Assembly: GCF_000745855.1 (NCBI RefSeq)
Contig: NZ_JQKD01000003.1
Span: 248,001 to 312,000 of the forward strand
Direction: 5' to 3'
Origin: Xenophilus azovorans DSM 13620
GTDB lineage: Bacteria; Pseudomonadota; Gammaproteobacteria; Burkholderiales; Burkholderiaceae_C
DNA: 64,000 bases
Of the stretch, positions 30,172 to 48,083 are shown piece after piece. How positions within the stretch are numbered: the stretch's first letter is position 1; each line of letters starts with the position of its first letter. The notes below the pieces were generated by a model. It ran no database searches. It saw nothing but the letters and a program-made list of their open reading frames with translations, and was not told where the DNA came from. Both the position numbers and the translations under genes were made by a program.

Positions 30172-30855
30172 TCACTGCCCGGACGCCGCCTGCGGCGTCT
30201 GGAGGAAGTCGAACACCTCCGCCAGGCGCTTCTGGTCGGGCATGACGTAGATGATGCCGACGCGGTCGCTCAGGTTGGGCTTGACCCACGCGTCGTAGAA
30301 GTCGGCCGGCACGTTGATGCAGCCGTAGGAGATGCGGTTGTCCTCGCTGGTGTCCGAGGCCAGGCGCTCCAGGCGGCGCTCGGCCTTCACCAGCGGCCGC
30401 ACGCGGTGCATCGACACGGCGACGCTGTAGTCCACCCACACGATGTCCTCGCGCTTGGCGTTGCGCCCCGGCTCGCCGACGAAGCGGCCGGCCGGCGTGG
30501 TGCGCTCGTGCGGCTTGATGAGGCGCATCGGCCGCTCGCCGATGCCCGGCACCGAATCGTCGCCCTTGGCCAGCCCGAGCAGCACGGGCGAGGTGCCCAG
30601 CAAGCGGCCCTGTTCGTCGAACACCGACACCGCCGCATGCGGCTTGTCGACGACGGCGAAGGCCTTGCCCTCGTTGTTGCGGGCGCGGATGACGCGAGCC
30701 GCCAGGTCCAGCGCCTCGGGGGAGGCCTGCACCGTCGCGGCGCGCAGTTCGGGCGGCACGGGTTTGCCGGCCGTGCTGCGTGCATGCGCCAGCGGCGCGA
30801 AGGCCAGGCTGCATGCGAGCAGCACGGGCGCGGTGGCGGAAAGCAGTGGGTGCAT
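30172..30855 (-). CDS. L,D-transpeptidase (YkuD domain), exported
   Basis: A 227-residue periplasmic YkuD-domain protein. The signal peptide is MHPLLSATAPVLLACSLAFAPLAHA; the catalytic Cys179 lies in ISYGCINVPADFYD and the partner His is probably in SVAVSMHRVRP. SYGCIN replaces the more usual S-H/R-G-C-x-R form, so it may belong to a divergent subfamily. Such enzymes form 3-3 peptidoglycan crosslinks or attach proteins to the wall. The ATG at 30855 is preferred because it begins the signal peptide; an upstream ATG at 30933 overlaps a terminator-like hairpin. The neighbouring proline-rich exported protein may be functionally linked. Confidence 0.85.
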   Translation of the reverse strand: MHPLLSATAPVLLACSLAFAPLAHARSTAGKPVPPELRAATVQASPEALDLAARVIRARNNEGKAFAVVDKPHAAVSVFDEQGRLLGTSPVLLGLAKGDDSVPGIGERPMRLIKPHERTTPAGRFVGEPGRNAKREDIVWVDYSVAVSMHRVRPLVKAERRLERLASDTSEDNRISYGCINVPADFYDAWVKPNLSDRVGIIYVMPDQKRLAEVFDFLQTPQAASGQ

Positions 30856-40667: not shown

Positions 40668-43600
40668 ATGAACCGCATCCATCGCGTCATCTTCAACCAA
40701 GCCCTGGGCACGGCCCAGGTGGTGCCCGAGGTGGCGCACGCCCGCGGCAGCAGCACCGTCCAGGATGAGACGCCCGGGCGCGCCGGCGCGCCCGCCTTCC
40801 GTCTCTCGCCGACCGCCCGGCTGTGCGCCGCCGCGATCGTGTCCCTGGCGGTCGGCGGCGCCTGGGCCGCCGGCGGCACTGGCGGCGCCACGTACAGCGG
40901 CGCGGTCGCGGGGGGAGCCGGCGGCACATCCGCCGCCGGAGCGACGGGCGCCTCTGGCGTGGTCAGCAGCTTCCCGGTCGGCGGCGGCGGGGGCGGGGGC
41001 GGCACGAATCTCGGCACGGGCATCGGCAGCGCAGGCGGCCGAGGCGGCCAGACCGGCGCCCTCGGAGGCAACGGCGGCGCGCGCGGAGACCGGGTGACGC
41101 TGGGCGCCAGCACCCACAACGCCACGGGCTCCTCCGGCGGCAACGGCCAGTCCGTCGTGATTCCCTCAAACCCGGGATGGTCCGACCTGGGTGCAGGTGG
41201 CGGCGGCAGCGGCGGCGCGGGCCTGGCGGTCGACATGTTCTTCGGCATCCTTGCCACCCATACGGTCACCGGCAAGGCCCTGGGCGGCAATGGCGGCAAC
41301 GGCGGCAACGCAGGCCTCAACCAGGACAGCTGGGGCGGTGGCGGCGGCGGCGGCGAGGGCGGCATGGGCGTGCTGCGCACGAGCGGCAATGTCGCTATCG
41401 ACGTCGGCGCGTCCGCCCTCGGCGGGAACGGCGGCAACGGTGGCCAGGCCGGCGGCGGCGCCGGCGGCAGCGGGGGCGACGGCGGTGCCGGCATCGCCTG
41501 GTCGGGCGCCGGGACCGGTACGCTGACCAATGGCGGAGCCATCGCAGGCGGCAGCGGCGGCATGGGCGGCAAGGGCGCGGCCGGCACCGGCGCGCAGGGC
41601 CTCGGCGGCCAGGGCGTGGTCTGGGCCGGCTCCAAGGGCGGCACCCTGACGAACGACGCCGGCGGCAGCATGTCCGGCGGCGCGGGCCGCATCGGCGGCG
41701 ACGGCGTGAGCCGCACGGGCGGCGGCAGCAGCACCCTCGCCATCCGCAACAGCGGCGTGATCAGCGGTGGGGCCGGCACGGCTGCCGGCGGCGCGGGCAT
41801 TTCGGGCAGCAATCTGTCCGTCGTCAACAACGGCACCATCCGCGGCGGGCGGGCCGACGGCGGCACGGGCGCCCAGGCCAATGCCGTCACCTTCACCGGC
41901 GGCAAGAACACGCTGCAGATCAACACCGGCTCGACCATCGAGGGCAACGTGGTGGCCGTGGCCGGCGGCGCGGACCAGCTCGTGTTCGGCGGGGCCGGGA
42001 GCGACAGCTTCGACGTGGGGCTGATCGGGAGCCAGTACCGCAACTTCGCCGGCCTGGAGAAGGCCGACGGCGGCACCTGGACGCTGACCGGATCGAGCAA
42101 GGCGGCCACGCCCTGGACGATCAGCGGCGGCACGCTGGTCGGCCATGCTGCCGCCTTCGGCAGCGGCAGCATCCTGAACGACGCCACGCTGGTGCTCGAC
42201 CAGGCCGCCGACGTCAGCATGGCCAACACCCTGGGCGGCGACGGCAGGCTGGTCAAGACCGGCGCCGGCGCGCTCGCGCTGACGGGCAACGTCGCGCTGG
42301 CGGGCGGCGCCGAGGTCGCGGCCGGCATGCTGCGGCTGGGCGATGCGGCGGTCACAGCCGGCAGCATCACCGGGACGAAGGGCAGCAGCCCCCTGCTGGG
42401 CGCCGGCGGCCACGGCGGGACGGCGGTGACGGTGGAGGCCGGCGCCGCCGGCGCAGCCAACTTCGGCACCTTCACCGGCGGGGCCGGCGGCAACGGCGGC
42501 GTCGTCGCCCTGACGTTCGGCCAGCGCGGCGGCGACGGCGGCACCGGCCTGCACAACGACGCGGCGCAGGCCGCGATCGACAACGCCGGCACGGTGGCCG
42601 GCGGCGCGGGCGGCCGGGGCGGCATCGCCGTGCTCGTCTCCGGGCGGGGCGGCGACGGCGGCACCGGCCTGAACAGCACGGCCGGCGGCGTCACCATCCG
42701 GAACAGCGGTGCCGTCCAGGGCGGCGCGGGCGGCGCCGGAGGCATCGGCGCGGTCGGCGTGGCCAGCGGCGGCGGCAGCGGCGGCACGGGCATGGCCCTC
42801 GCCGGCAGCACGGTCGTGGTGAACAGCGGCAGCATCGCCGGCGGGAACGGCGGGCCGGCGGGCAACACGCTGATCGACCTCAACACGCCGGCCGCGGGCG
42901 GCGTGGGCATCGTCGCCAGCGGCGACGTCCGCATCACCAACGGCGGCAGCATCAGCGGCGGCCTGGCGGCGGGCGGCGGCGAACGGGCGGACGCGATCCG
43001 GTTCAGCGGCGGCGGCAACCGCCTCGAGCTGCTGAACACCTCGGCCATCACCGGCAATGTGGTGGCGACCGCCGCCGGCGGCGACACGCTGGCGCTGACC
43101 GGCAGCGCCGACGGCGCCTTCGACGCCTCGGCCATCGGCGCGGCCGCGCAGTACCGCCACTTCACCGGCTTCGAGAAGGAGGGCACCAGCACCTGGACGC
43201 TGACCGGCAGCACGGCCGCCGTGACGCCCTGGCAGGTGACGGGCGGCGCACTGCGCATCGCCGACGACGCGGCGCTCGGCGACGCCGGCGGCGCGCTGAC
43301 GCTGGACGGCGGCGCCCTGCAGACGACGTCCAGCACCACCTCGGCGCGGGCCCTCACGCTGGGCGCAGGCGGCGGCACCCTGCACAGCGACACGGCGACC
43401 GTCCACACGGTCGCAGGCGTCATCGGCGGCAGCGGCGCGCTCGTCAAGGACGGCGGCGGCACCCTGGTGCTGGCGGCGGCGAACACGTACGGCGGCGGCA
43501 CCACCATCGCCGCGGGCACGCTGCAACTGGGCGATGGCGGCACCGCCGGCTCGATCACCGGCGATGTGGCGAACCACGGCACGCTCGCCTTCAACCGCAG

Positions 43601-45671
43601 CGACGCGGCCACCTTCGCCGGCGCCATCTCGGGCAGCGGCGCGGTCGAGCAGCGCGGCAGCGGCACGACGACGCTCACCGGCGCCAGCAGCCACACGGGC
43701 GGCACCACCATCGCCGCCGGCGCGCTGCAGCTGGGCGACGGCGGCACCAGCGGCTCGATCGCCGGCGACGTGGCGAACCACGGCACGCTCGCCTTCAACC
43801 GCAGCGACGCGACCACCTTCGCCGGCACCATCTCGGGCAGCGGCGCGGTCGAGCAGCGCGGCGGCGGCACCACCACGCTGGCCGCGGCCAACGGCTACAC
43901 CGGCGGCACGCGCATCCTGAACGGCACGCTGGCCGGCCACGCCGCCAGCTTCGGCAGCGGCGCGATCGTCAACGACGCAGCCCTGGTCATCGACCAGGGC
44001 ACGGCGGCCGGCTTCGCCAACGCGATGTCCGGCAGCGGCAGCTTCACCAAGACCGGCGCCGGCGCGCTGGACCTCACCGGCGACAGCAGCGCCTTCACCG
44101 GCGCCAGCCGCGTGGCCGCGGGCACGCTGGCGGTCAACGGCCGGCTCGGCGGCACGCTGAGCGTGGCCGGCGGCGCCACGCTCAAGGGCAACGGCACGGT
44201 GGGCAGCACGGTGGTCGAAGGCGGCGCGCTGGTGGCGCCCGGCAACTCCATCGGCACGCTGCACGTGGCCGGCGACCTGACGCTGGCCAGCGGCGCCGCC
44301 TACCAGGTGGAGGCCTCGCCCGACGGCCGCAGCGACCAGATCCTGGTCAGCGGCAGGGCGACCGTGCAGGGCGCCTCCGCCATCGCGCTGCTGGCCGACG
44401 GCAACTGGAACCCCTACGGCAGCTACACCATCCTGAAGGCGGACGGCGGCATCGCCGGCCAGTTCGGCGCCGTTAACTCCAACTTCGCCTTCCTCACGCC
44501 GACCATCGAGTACGGCGCGCAGACTGCCTCGCTGACGCTGATGCGCAACGACGTGCGCTTCTCCGACGTGGGCGTGACCTGGAACCAGAAGGCCAGCGCC
44601 GGCGCGATCGAGCCGCTGGCGGCCACGCCGCTGTACCGCGCCGTGGTGCAGCTCGACCGGTCGAACGCACTGGTGGCCTTCGACCAGCTCTCGGGCGAGC
44701 TGCACGCCAGCGTGAAGTCGGCCGCGGTGGAAGACAGCCACCTGGTGCGCGACACCGTGCTGGACCGCGCACGCCAGAGCCTGGGCGGCGTCGGCACCGC
44801 CGCCGCCGGCGCCACGCAGTTGAGCGAAGGCAGCCAGGGCAGCGTGTGGGCGCGCGCCTACGGCGGGCGCACCGAGGCCGGCGGCGACGGCAACGCCGCC
44901 AACAGCGAGCGCAGCACCAGCGGCCTGCTGATCGGCGCCGACCGGCGCGTGGGCGAGAGCGCCCGCGCCGGCGTGTTCGCCGGCTTCGGCCACACCCGCC
45001 TGGACGCCGGCCAACGCCGCGGCGAGGCCAGCGGCGACGCCTGGCACCTGGGCGCCTACGGCGGCGCGCAGTGGGGCGCGCTGGGCGTGCGCGGCGGCGC
45101 GAGCCTGAGCCGCCAGTCGCTGACCACCCAGCGCACGGTCGCCTTCACCGGCGTGACGGACGGGCTGCGCGCCAGCTACGCGCTGCGCACGGTGCAGGCC
45201 TTCGGCGAGGTGGGCTGGCGCATCGACGCCGGCGAGCGCACCGCCTTCGAGCCCTTCGCCAGCCTGGCGCACGTGGACGTGCGCAGCGGCAGCATCAACG
45301 AGCAGGGCCTGGGTAGCGGCGCCGCGCTCAGCGGCCGCGGCGACAGCACGAAGACCACCTTCGCCACCCTGGGCCTGCGGGCGTCCACCCGCGCCAGCCT
45401 GGGCGGCGTGGAGGCGACGCTGCGCGGCTCGGCCGGCTGGCGGCGCGTGGTGGACGGCGACGTCACGCCCAGCGCCCGCCTCGGCCTGTACGGCGGCCTG
45501 AGCCAGTTCACGGTGCTGGGCACGCCGCTGGCGCGCGAGGCCTTCGTGCTGGACGCCGGCGTGGACCTGAACCTGGGCCGCAACATGACGCTGGGCGTCA
45601 CCTACGGCACGCAGTTCACCGGCGGCACCACCTACAACGGGCTGAAGGCGGACATGCGCTGGACCTTCTGA
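40668..45671 (+). CDS. Large type V autotransporter with ESPR signal and PATR repeats
   Basis: A 1667-residue secreted surface protein. Residues 1-27 (MNRIHRVIFNQALGTAQVV..) form the extended signal peptide region, followed by a hydrophobic core ending AWA near 67. The passenger begins with about 380 residues extremely rich in Gly and Ala (runs such as GGGGGGGG), then beta-helix repeats with PATR motifs such as TLVLAAANTYGGGTTIAAGTL. Two near-identical 68-residue units lie at residues 944-1079. The C-terminal 280 residues (about 1388-1667) are the membrane beta-barrel, ending in Phe (MRWTF). Probably an adhesin or biofilm factor. The passenger has no Cys and no visible protease motif. Confidence 0.92.
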   Translation: MNRIHRVIFNQALGTAQVVPEVAHARGSSTVQDETPGRAGAPAFRLSPTARLCAAAIVSLAVGGAWAAGGTGGATYSGAVAGGAGGTSAAGATGASGVVSSFPVGGGGGGGGTNLGTGIGSAGGRGGQTGALGGNGGARGDRVTLGASTHNATGSSGGNGQSVVIPSNPGWSDLGAGGGGSGGAGLAVDMFFGILATHTVTGKALGGNGGNGGNAGLNQDSWGGGGGGGEGGMGVLRTSGNVAIDVGASALGGNGGNGGQAGGGAGGSGGDGGAGIAWSGAGTGTLTNGGAIAGGSGGMGGKGAAGTGAQGLGGQGVVWAGSKGGTLTNDAGGSMSGGAGRIGGDGVSRTGGGSSTLAIRNSGVISGGAGTAAGGAGISGSNLSVVNNGTIRGGRADGGTGAQANAVTFTGGKNTLQINTGSTIEGNVVAVAGGADQLVFGGAGSDSFDVGLIGSQYRNFAGLEKADGGTWTLTGSSKAATPWTISGGTLVGHAAAFGSGSILNDATLVLDQAADVSMANTLGGDGRLVKTGAGALALTGNVALAGGAEVAAGMLRLGDAAVTAGSITGTKGSSPLLGAGGHGGTAVTVEAGAAGAANFGTFTGGAGGNGGVVALTFGQRGGDGGTGLHNDAAQAAIDNAGTVAGGAGGRGGIAVLVSGRGGDGGTGLNSTAGGVTIRNSGAVQGGAGGAGGIGAVGVASGGGSGGTGMALAGSTVVVNSGSIAGGNGGPAGNTLIDLNTPAAGGVGIVASGDVRITNGGSISGGLAAGGGERADAIRFSGGGNRLELLNTSAITGNVVATAAGGDTLALTGSADGAFDASAIGAAAQYRHFTGFEKEGTSTWTLTGSTAAVTPWQVTGGALRIADDAALGDAGGALTLDGGALQTTSSTTSARALTLGAGGGTLHSDTATVHTVAGVIGGSGALVKDGGGTLVLAAANTYGGGTTIAAGTLQLGDGGTAGSITGDVANHGTLAFNRSDAATFAGAISGSGAVEQRGSGTTTLTGASSHTGGTTIAAGALQLGDGGTSGSIAGDVANHGTLAFNRSDATTFAGTISGSGAVEQRGGGTTTLAAANGYTGGTRILNGTLAGHAASFGSGAIVNDAALVIDQGTAAGFANAMSGSGSFTKTGAGALDLTGDSSAFTGASRVAAGTLAVNGRLGGTLSVAGGATLKGNGTVGSTVVEGGALVAPGNSIGTLHVAGDLTLASGAAYQVEASPDGRSDQILVSGRATVQGASAIALLADGNWNPYGSYTILKADGGIAGQFGAVNSNFAFLTPTIEYGAQTASLTLMRNDVRFSDVGVTWNQKASAGAIEPLAATPLYRAVVQLDRSNALVAFDQLSGELHASVKSAAVEDSHLVRDTVLDRARQSLGGVGTAAAGATQLSEGSQGSVWARAYGGRTEAGGDGNAANSERSTSGLLIGADRRVGESARAGVFAGFGHTRLDAGQRRGEASGDAWHLGAYGGAQWGALGVRGGASLSRQSLTTQRTVAFTGVTDGLRASYALRTVQAFGEVGWRIDAGERTAFEPFASLAHVDVRSGSINEQGLGSGAALSGRGDSTKTTFATLGLRASTRASLGGVEATLRGSAGWRRVVDGDVTPSARLGLYGGLSQFTVLGTPLAREAFVLDAGVDLNLGRNMTLGVTYGTQFTGGTTYNGLKADMRWTF
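43497..43904 (+). repeat. Tandem 204-bp repeat inside the autotransporter
   Basis: Two adjacent copies, 43497-43700 and 43701-43904, share long identical blocks, for example around GTGGCGAACCACGGCACGCT at 43566 and 43770. Each encodes 68 residues of beta-helix with the PATR motif. High identity suggests recent duplication, and copy number could vary by recombination. Confidence 0.9.
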
Positions 45672-47130: not shown

Positions 47131-47855
47131 GTGGCAACTCCCCTGGCCGCCGCGCGCTCGGCCGTGGTCTGCGCGACCTTGTCGCGCACGTAGAGGGGCC
47201 AGGCCCGCTCCGGCGGCACGGCGGCGCCGGCGGCCAGCAGCGCGGGCGCCAGGCGCAGGATCGCCGCCGCGGTGGGCAGCGCCTGCACGCGCGGCGCATC
47301 CTGCGGCAGGCGCTCGCCGCAGGCGGCGAAGGCGTTGCCGGCCAGCGTCCAGCCGGCGGGGACGGCCACGTCCTCCGGCGACAGCAGCCGCGCCTCGGCC
47401 GCGGCGGCGCCGAGCGGGTGCGCGCCGCCGTCGAAGGCATGCGCGGCGGCATAGACCTCGCCCATGCGCGCATCGAGCACCGCCACCACGCGCGCGGCGC
47501 CGGCGGCATGGTGCGCCTCCTCGGCCACGGCGTGCAGCGTGTCGACGGGCAGCACCGGCAGGCCGGCGCCGAAGGCCAGGCCCTGCGCCACGGCGCAGGC
47601 GGTGCGCAGCCCGGTGAAGGAGCCGGGGCCGCGGCCGAAGCAGACCGCGTCCAGTTGCCCGATGGCGAGGCCCGCCTCGGCCAGCAGCGCCTGCACCAGC
47701 GGGATCAGGGTGGCGGAGGATTCGGCGCCGCCCGGCCCGCTGCGCGCCAGCACGGCGCCGCCCCGGCGCACGGCGACGGACAGCACCTCGGTGCTGGTGT
47801 CGAAGGCCAGCAGGCTAGGGCCTGTGAACGCCATGGAAGGGGTCGCGAAGCTCAT
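47127..47855 (-). CDS. tsaB: tRNA t6A biosynthesis protein TsaB
   Basis: A 242-residue TsaB/YeaZ protein, the non-catalytic partner of TsaD in making threonylcarbamoyladenosine on ANN-decoding tRNAs. The ASKHA-fold motifs LLAFDTSTEVLSVAV and FGRGPGSFTGLRTACAVAQGL are clear. Homologues begin at about LLAFDTST; the N-terminal MSFATPSMAFTGPS here is encoded by the terminal inverted repeat of the element at 47816. Two in-frame ATGs (47855 and 47834) both lie in or next to that arm, so start choice is uncertain. First in a tsaB-rimI-udg series. Confidence 0.9.
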   Translation of the reverse strand: MSFATPSMAFTGPSLLAFDTSTEVLSVAVRRGGAVLARSGPGGAESSATLIPLVQALLAEAGLAIGQLDAVCFGRGPGSFTGLRTACAVAQGLAFGAGLPVLPVDTLHAVAEEAHHAAGAARVVAVLDARMGEVYAAAHAFDGGAHPLGAAAAEARLLSPEDVAVPAGWTLAGNAFAACGERLPQDAPRVQALPTAAAILRLAPALLAAGAAVPPERAWPLYVRDKVAQTTAERAAARGVAT

Positions 47856-48083
47856 CGCAGCCCGTCCATCAAGGCGCGCGACGCCGTGCGTGCGTCCGCA
47901 CGCACAAGGAGCGCAACGCTGAGGGGCGGGCTGCGATGAGCTTCCCTCCGGGTTGCTTCGCAAAGGGGCCGTCTGCGGCGTTGCCCGCGCTTGCAAGGCC
48001 CCAGCCTTGCTGCGCGCGGGCGCCTTGCATCCAGCCCCTTTGCGAAGCAACGCGATCCCCTTCCATGGCGTTCACAGGCCCTA
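47816..48083. mobile_element. MITE-like palindromic element of about 268 bp
   Basis: Terminal inverted repeats of 32-33 bp (47816-47847 and 48051-48083) begin TAGGGCCTGTGAACGCC and match apart from one inserted base. Inside are a 17-bp perfect inverted repeat (47848-47864/47927-47943), an 18-bp perfect one (47952-47969/48034-48051), and a nested hairpin (47983-47990/48014-48021 with GCAAGG/CCTTGC). No transposase reading frame. Flanks read CTA|GGG and CCC|TAA, compatible with TA duplication or a YTAR-type target. The left arm holds the tsaB start codon and the right arm the stop codon of the EamA gene. Confidence 0.8.

Follow-up and report, generated by a model that had tools for sequence, protein, structure and literature searches.

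The 268-bp palindromic sequence at positions 47816-48083 of the window (the whole 64,000-nucleotide stretch that was analysed) is most probably a MITE-like element that an IS5-family transposase mobilises in trans, with a conserved, separable folded module in its interior. The original prediction had offered either a non-autonomous transposable element (MITE) or a structured RNA cassette, and these two readings are not alternatives here. The first agrees with dispersed copies, a TA duplication within YTAR, an insertion sequence (IS) with the ends of the family and an empty site in relatives. The second gains support from a covarying hairpin of ~100 nt, present twice in inverted order and also found inside other terminal inverted repeats (TIRs), which may act as RNA. 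The interior is the constant, conserved part of the element.

The inverted repeats proposed for this place are real: the TIR and two pairs of hairpin arms were located, and their fold lies far beyond that of shuffled sequences. The folding energy of the element is -132.8 kcal/mol as ssDNA, where dinucleotide shuffles give -65.4 ± 3.9 (z -17.1; 0/200 as good), and -218 as RNA, compared with -125.6 after shuffling (again 0/200). The inverted ends stand as predicted, their length of 32 bp does not: the perfect TIR measures 27 bp (47816-47842 and 48057-48083, 100% complementary). The hairpin arms are 92% complementary for 47847-47871 and 47920-47944, and 86% for 47949-47976 and 48027-48054. With up to three mismatches allowed, two occurrences of the quoted end, TAGGGCCTGTGAACGCC, are present in the window, and they form one inverted pair. 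The predicted span of 268 bp holds when the TA of both sides is included, the element proper being 47818-48081. Inside the TIRs, two hairpins of ~100 nt, hereafter M modules, stand in inverted order on either side of a CCC-NNN-GGG mini-hairpin, and in both (hairpin B on the other strand) a tip stem is enclosed by the core C(A/T)AGGCGC...GCAACG. The element has no reading frame of its own, as had been claimed, and no transposase gene. An intrinsic terminator and a sigma-70 promoter were looked for in the window copy and none was found. The features are as follows, R1 being the covariance model of M.

47816 to 48083, no strand: whole element with the duplicated TA on both sides (element proper, GGG...CCC, 47818-48081).
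47816 to 47842, plus strand: left TIR with TA, 27 bp, perfect.
48057 to 48083, minus strand: right TIR with TA.
47846 to 47943, plus strand: hairpin A, an M module, 84.0 bits to model R1.
47870 to 47877, plus strand: 5' core of hairpin A, CAAGGCGC.
47913 to 47918, plus strand: 3' core of hairpin A, GCAACG.
47944 to 47952, no strand: mini-hairpin CCC-TCC-GGG between both modules.
47953 to 48052, minus strand: hairpin B, the second M module, 87.4 bits to R1.
48020 to 48027, minus strand: 5' core of hairpin B, CAAGGCGC.
47979 to 47984, minus strand: 3' core of hairpin B, GCAACG.

The element lies between an EamA-type transporter gene (Pfam EamA) and tsaB (TsaD/TsaB family, PF00814), both on the minus strand. 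Its insertion left the EamA gene with a stop codon and placed an in-frame ATG ahead of tsaB, and this ATG may serve as the tsaB start codon.

48081 to 48083, minus strand: stop codon TAG of the EamA gene, composed of the duplicated TA and the first G of the element.
47832 to 47834, minus strand: ATG within the TIR, in frame with tsaB and giving MAFTGPSLLAFDTST; putative start codon.

A query taken from the tsaB flank matched 15/15 genomes of the genus (own genome included). The comparison of empty sites that had been suggested for the tsaB-EamA junction gave a tsaB start without the element in 8 same-genus genomes, which are all those readable by the search string among the 14. The sequence is thus neither unique nor conserved in relatives as ordinary intergenic DNA: it has copies elsewhere and its site is empty in the 8 readable relatives, and ordinary conserved intergenic DNA is ruled out on these two grounds. 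A chance palindrome is rejected as well, since none of the 200 shuffles folds as well. With nothing found in favour of either, we regard the probability of these two explanations as negligible. Elsewhere in the window, positions 40668-45671 contain a repeat-rich open frame of 1667 aa, the C-terminal part of which resembles an autotransporter barrel.

The search of this and related genomes that had been recommended returned further full-length and partial copies in the same genome, and copies in relatives, the own genome being included in every tally of copies given here. The own genome has more full-length copies at C36 (96%) and C7 (91%), plus partial ones. By DNA search, 21/60 relatives were positive at E<=0.001 and 27/399 family genomes at E<=1e-15. 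Pairs of ends that span 258-286 bp were detected in 51/280 family genomes (39/141 genera) and in 17/399 order genomes (13/159 genera), and the reversed control pattern gave no match among the matches listed for the family and order searches. A single-end pattern was present in 110/299 family genomes, its control giving at least 3 matches among those listed. One of 72,556 plasmid records, from Variovorax paradoxus, has the element (92.5%); two query sequences had no match in phages, and one divergent query had none in E. coli. After removal of one junk call (L170) from 139 automatic calls, 138 distinct copies were left, and 133 of them measured 262-268 bp without TA; lengths of 240-300 were permitted, but many copies had been sampled via the 258-286 pattern. 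Elements with the TIR type of the window copy are designated class 1. Some unusual forms were observed among the copies. A class-1 element of 350 bp (L224:341-690) has ~80 bp of other palindromic sequence in one hairpin tip, and L241 and L243 (G000:C26) are reduced in length: one form is a palindrome of 162 bp with a single hairpin, and the other, of 98 bp, contains little more than the ends. In the own genome, two class-1-like ends lie head to head at L220:325-352, TAGGGCCTGTTGCC abutting GATAACAGGCCCTA, and resemble an end-to-end junction or a remnant.

The flanks had been said to resemble a TA or YTAR target, and TA is indeed duplicated within YTAR: a Y is present at -3 (before the left TA) in 127/137 flanks and an R at +3 (after the right TA) in 131/137. 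Full-length IS with the same ends, proposed as a check, were found in related genomes as IS5-family IS of 803-831 bp at nine loci, with TA on both sides. In three of them both ends read TAGGGCCTGTTAACAC; in the other six, one end departs from it by one or two changes. The end of the family, TAGGGCCTGTTMACRC, is 16 bp long; many short copies are identical to the IS end at 16/16 letters, and the end of the window copy, TAGGGCCTGTGAACGC, at 14/16. The IS pair was recovered in 16/20 fetched regions, and in 16/16 TA flanked both sides in YTAR. In L216, one of these IS, the transposase is in two pieces that match DUF4096 and DDE_Tnp_1 above the cut-off; against the IS5-family model NF033580, the second piece scores 134.9 bits and the first 105.2, below the cut-off of 110. 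Ends of this TA/YTAR type presumably belong to the IS427 group. No M module was detected in the three IS loci searched (L205, L206, L223). Since the 16-bp end and the TA duplication are common to the family and the IS, and the interior was absent from those IS that were searched, the element is very probably mobilised in trans: the IS5-family DDE transposase would recognise GGGCCTGTTMAC-type ends, act on them in trans and duplicate TA in YTAR. The IS link is weakened by the incomplete match between the end of the window copy and the IS end, and by the lack of a close partner IS in the own genome, where only two fragments 36% identical were found in a draft of 132 contigs from which repeats may be lost. 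A partner IS in the same genome is not required of a MITE, and many MITEs have no interior derived from their IS.

Across 62 representatives (85% clustering) the stems of M diverge and its motifs persist. The core motif was located in 107 hairpins and missed in 11. The two arms of a hairpin are on average 75% alike, against 51-53% between different copies. In 84 half-elements (alignment A3; 86 had been selected and two from L325 were excluded), 90.7% of the cells of 34 pairs are paired, compared with 56.7% after shuffling and at most 41.5% when slid, and covariation reaches 0.805 against 0.199 for shuffled sequences. No known Rfam RNA accounts for the module: at the gathering threshold the window gave 0 matches and 19 element loci only the two tRNAs of L261, outside the element, and a permissive scan of the window copy yielded microRNA-type matches far below threshold. 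These data bear on the possibility of a plain MITE, in which a functionless interior would have its palindromes matched by arm-to-arm copying in replication and the copies would descend from few successful ancestors. Arm copying would yield paired changes, and the TIRs, the TA duplication and the IS with the ends of the family all agree with such an element, as do the existence of truncated copies, the degenerate second hairpins (many elements have one degenerate M) and the class-1 copies without orientation bias described below. However, the core letters (GCAAC, AGGCG) and a fixed spacing were kept while the stems lost their likeness, arm copying ought to remove bulges, and the module also occurs within TIRs of other sequence. 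We therefore consider the plain MITE possible but rather doubtful.

Model R1 found M in 30/40 relatives at E<=0.001 and in 69/229 genomes of the class at E<=1e-6 (60/196 genera), the own genome included in both; the class is Gammaproteobacteria in the GTDB sense, which includes the old Betaproteobacteria. The same model gave 0 matches at E<=0.01 on 497 kb of 80 tsaB loci. M is also present on plasmids named as those of Azotobacter chroococcum NCIMB 8003, Halomonas sp. PA16-9, Pseudomonas aeruginosa PA83 and Candidatus Magnetococcus massalia, and one M-bearing plasmid is recorded as alphaproteobacterial. In the window itself, a weak R1 match at 30647-30742 (21.1 bits, E 0.006) is probably due to chance. 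Many R1 matches are framed by TIRs of other sequence. A rough single-linkage grouping of the 61 elements (of 73) that fell within the arm and length limits gave 16 TIR groups, one of which (L471) is an artefact of arm finding, leaving ~15. Similar interiors can have different ends, as in L441 (GGGCCTGTTAACAC) and L483 (GAGCCTGTCTATGAATAAATC), which are 80% identical over 178 nt, and some of the other TIRs resemble what we take to be IS630 or IS1380 ends. For 58 matches outside the training set (34 loci, belonging to other orders or to four plasmids), 93.7% pairing and a covariation of 0.888 against 0.194 were obtained, in an alignment fitted to the model and thus leaning towards it. As M turns up again within TIRs of a different sequence, the interior is separable from the ends. 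A class with a single M, ~166 bp long and with ends GAAGGTGTGAAYGAA, was found in 15/15 genomes of the genus, at 2-25 matches per genome (L516-L545).

To which strand the fold belongs was examined by counting G.T against A.C mismatches in M orientation. In the outer variable stems, G.T exceeded A.C by 42 to 18 in hairpin A and 31 to 9 in hairpin B (50 hairpins each), i.e. 73 vs 27 together (p 5e-6) and 52 vs 24 without one hot position (p 0.002). Alignment A3 gave 84 vs 38, and 51 vs 34 without its two hottest columns (p 0.08); in A4, which is fitted to the model, the same pair of counts was 74 vs 10 and 36 vs 10. The copies being related, these p values are optimistic. Whole arms including the core displayed the reverse, A.C exceeding G.T (169 vs 104 in A, 188 vs 91 in B); these counts come from an alignment without structure, and the outer-stem count was made after the whole-arm result had been seen. 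We attribute the whole-arm excess to A and C letters in the core that are fixed and unpaired. The tip stems reveal little (9 vs 7 and 8 vs 5), the TIR stem gave 21 vs 28, and in RNA folding M is more stable than its complement in 63/84 cases. Taken together, the strand evidence leans towards one folded strand per hairpin over a symmetric cruciform, and the wobble evidence for a role as RNA is mixed.

A function at the DNA level, in which ssDNA or cruciform hairpins would aid the transposase or the replication fork whichever transposase is involved, seems unlikely to us. A role in movement would account for a module on many TIRs, and of the 59 representatives in which the loop of the mini-hairpin was located, among 62 examined, 54 have GNA or TNC there; GNA forms a very stable triloop in DNA. 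Yet TNC, read as UNCG, suits RNA equally well, and a symmetric cruciform predicts no asymmetry between G.T and A.C, on which the wobble counts are mixed. The three IS with such ends lack M, and their transposition therefore needs no M. The concentration of copies at stop codons also points to mRNA rather than to DNA.

This concentration was established on class-1 copies, with flanking genes called by a simple codon score. Among 85 YTAR empty sites from 111 loci, 57 were at a stop codon, 19 in other non-coding DNA and 9 in coding DNA, compared with 23, 79 and 43 of 145 nearby YTAR sites (stop vs other, p 2e-12). The IS copies with the same ends were distributed as 4 stop, 6 other and 6 coding of 16, over a background of 4, 10 and 8. 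Elements differ from IS with p 0.004 for stop vs rest and p 0.057 for stop vs other non-coding. These p values, too, are overstated by the relatedness of the copies. As the IS copies have no stop-codon excess, a site preference of the transposase does not readily explain that of the elements, and we set this explanation aside, but the 16 IS copies are few and maybe younger. The neighbours of class-1 copies are in tandem at 71/111 loci, convergent at 26 and divergent at 14. No orientation bias relative to flanking genes was seen for class-1 tandem copies (27 vs 38), nor in a mixed set of 67 rows (21 vs 21 tandem), which hides opposite subgroups. In the single-M class, the flanking gene on one side, always the same one, points into the element at 28/28 loci, and the terminal TGA or TAA is the stop codon of that gene in 28/32 rows; from the 30 loci of this set, 2 (the G014 twins of G009) were excluded, 4 others were added, and L405, which is L520, was counted twice. 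In these copies M is antisense to the preceding gene, the mRNA carrying its complement. Tandem copies from other orders mostly have their better M in the sense orientation, by 12 vs 0 (L472-L491) and by 8 vs 3 in a second count within L472-L515, for which 5/24 further loci had flanks too short; this split was made after looking at the data, and the codon score used had been trained on genes of betaproteobacteria.

Of the functions considered for M, action as RNA directly behind stop codons is the likeliest and the best supported, on account of the position of the copies, the stability of the RNA and the mixed wobble signal, and we put it forward tentatively. Because the modules are in inverted order, an RNA transcribed from either side would have its parts in one order: a TIR, then sense M, the mini-hairpin, antisense M and again a TIR. 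Owing to the stable fold, the flanking mRNA might suffer no harm from the insertion or might benefit from it, and it is proposed that copies behind stop codons survive for this reason. The single-M class, with its antisense M, argues against the simple form of this role. The class-1 copies without orientation bias, the degenerate M of many elements and the window copy devoid of promoter and intrinsic terminator likewise count against the reading as a whole. A wider claim appears to us unlikely as a whole: M would be an undescribed class of functional RNA whose fold matters for fitness and which spreads as a satellite alongside many unrelated DDE transposons, with interchangeable ends taken from whichever IS is active and an inverted pair that works either way. 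If the module does act as RNA, annotation would have missed a widespread RNA at the 3' ends of mRNAs, one that would illustrate how a non-coding parasite switches its transposase partner. The covariance model makes the module directly searchable and testable.

MITEs are usually defined by their ends, and their interiors are regarded as filler. Here the situation is reversed, the interior being constant and the ends variable, in 69/229 class genomes and on the plasmid recorded as alphaproteobacterial. In the open-licence part of PMC, no paper contained the TIR strings, and among the papers listed, up to 20 per search, no description of the element was recognised by title or start of abstract; one may nevertheless exist. 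With IS5-family MITEs the element shares its short, gene-less nature, its IS5-family ends (16/16 letters in many copies, 14/16 in the window), the TA duplication and the dispersal; what sets it apart is an interior made of a conserved double module, which was not found in the three IS loci searched and which recurs in other TIRs. The hallmark of REP/REPIN sequences is a GTAG or CGTC tag with a RAYT partner. As far as the cited passages describe them, REP/REPIN are palindromic and extragenic, with REPs in alternating orientation within composite repeats (PMC3116915, PMC2817692, PMC3733652), and the units measure 20-40 bp (PMC3733652). Palindromic units, alternating orientation and extragenic location are common to both, whereas size and anatomy set the element apart, with its hairpins of ~100 nt within TIRs and its TA duplication. 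The ERIC/IRU sequence is described, in the passage cited, as a 127-bp mobile repeat whose orientation matters for host mRNA stability (PMC2229807). It is likewise a mobile repeat sitting in mRNA, but of another size and arrangement by its description, the element having a double module, covarying stems and changing TIRs. The NEMIS/Correia repeats of Neisseria, according to the same passage, are bounded by TIRs, measure 107 and 155 bp and form an RNA stem-loop proposed as an RNase III target near adjacent genes (PMC2229807). They resemble the element as TIR-bounded repeats with a stem-loop by genes, but are shorter, and their description in that passage includes no paired inverted module. For CIR of Caulobacter and Brucella, the RNA model given there comprises two long arms and a linker, with GANTC in the terminal loop and without a stem joining the 5' and 3' ends (PMC2229807). 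The two-arm layout of CIR and of the element is alike, whereas the stem between the 5' and 3' ends is present in the element and not in CIR.
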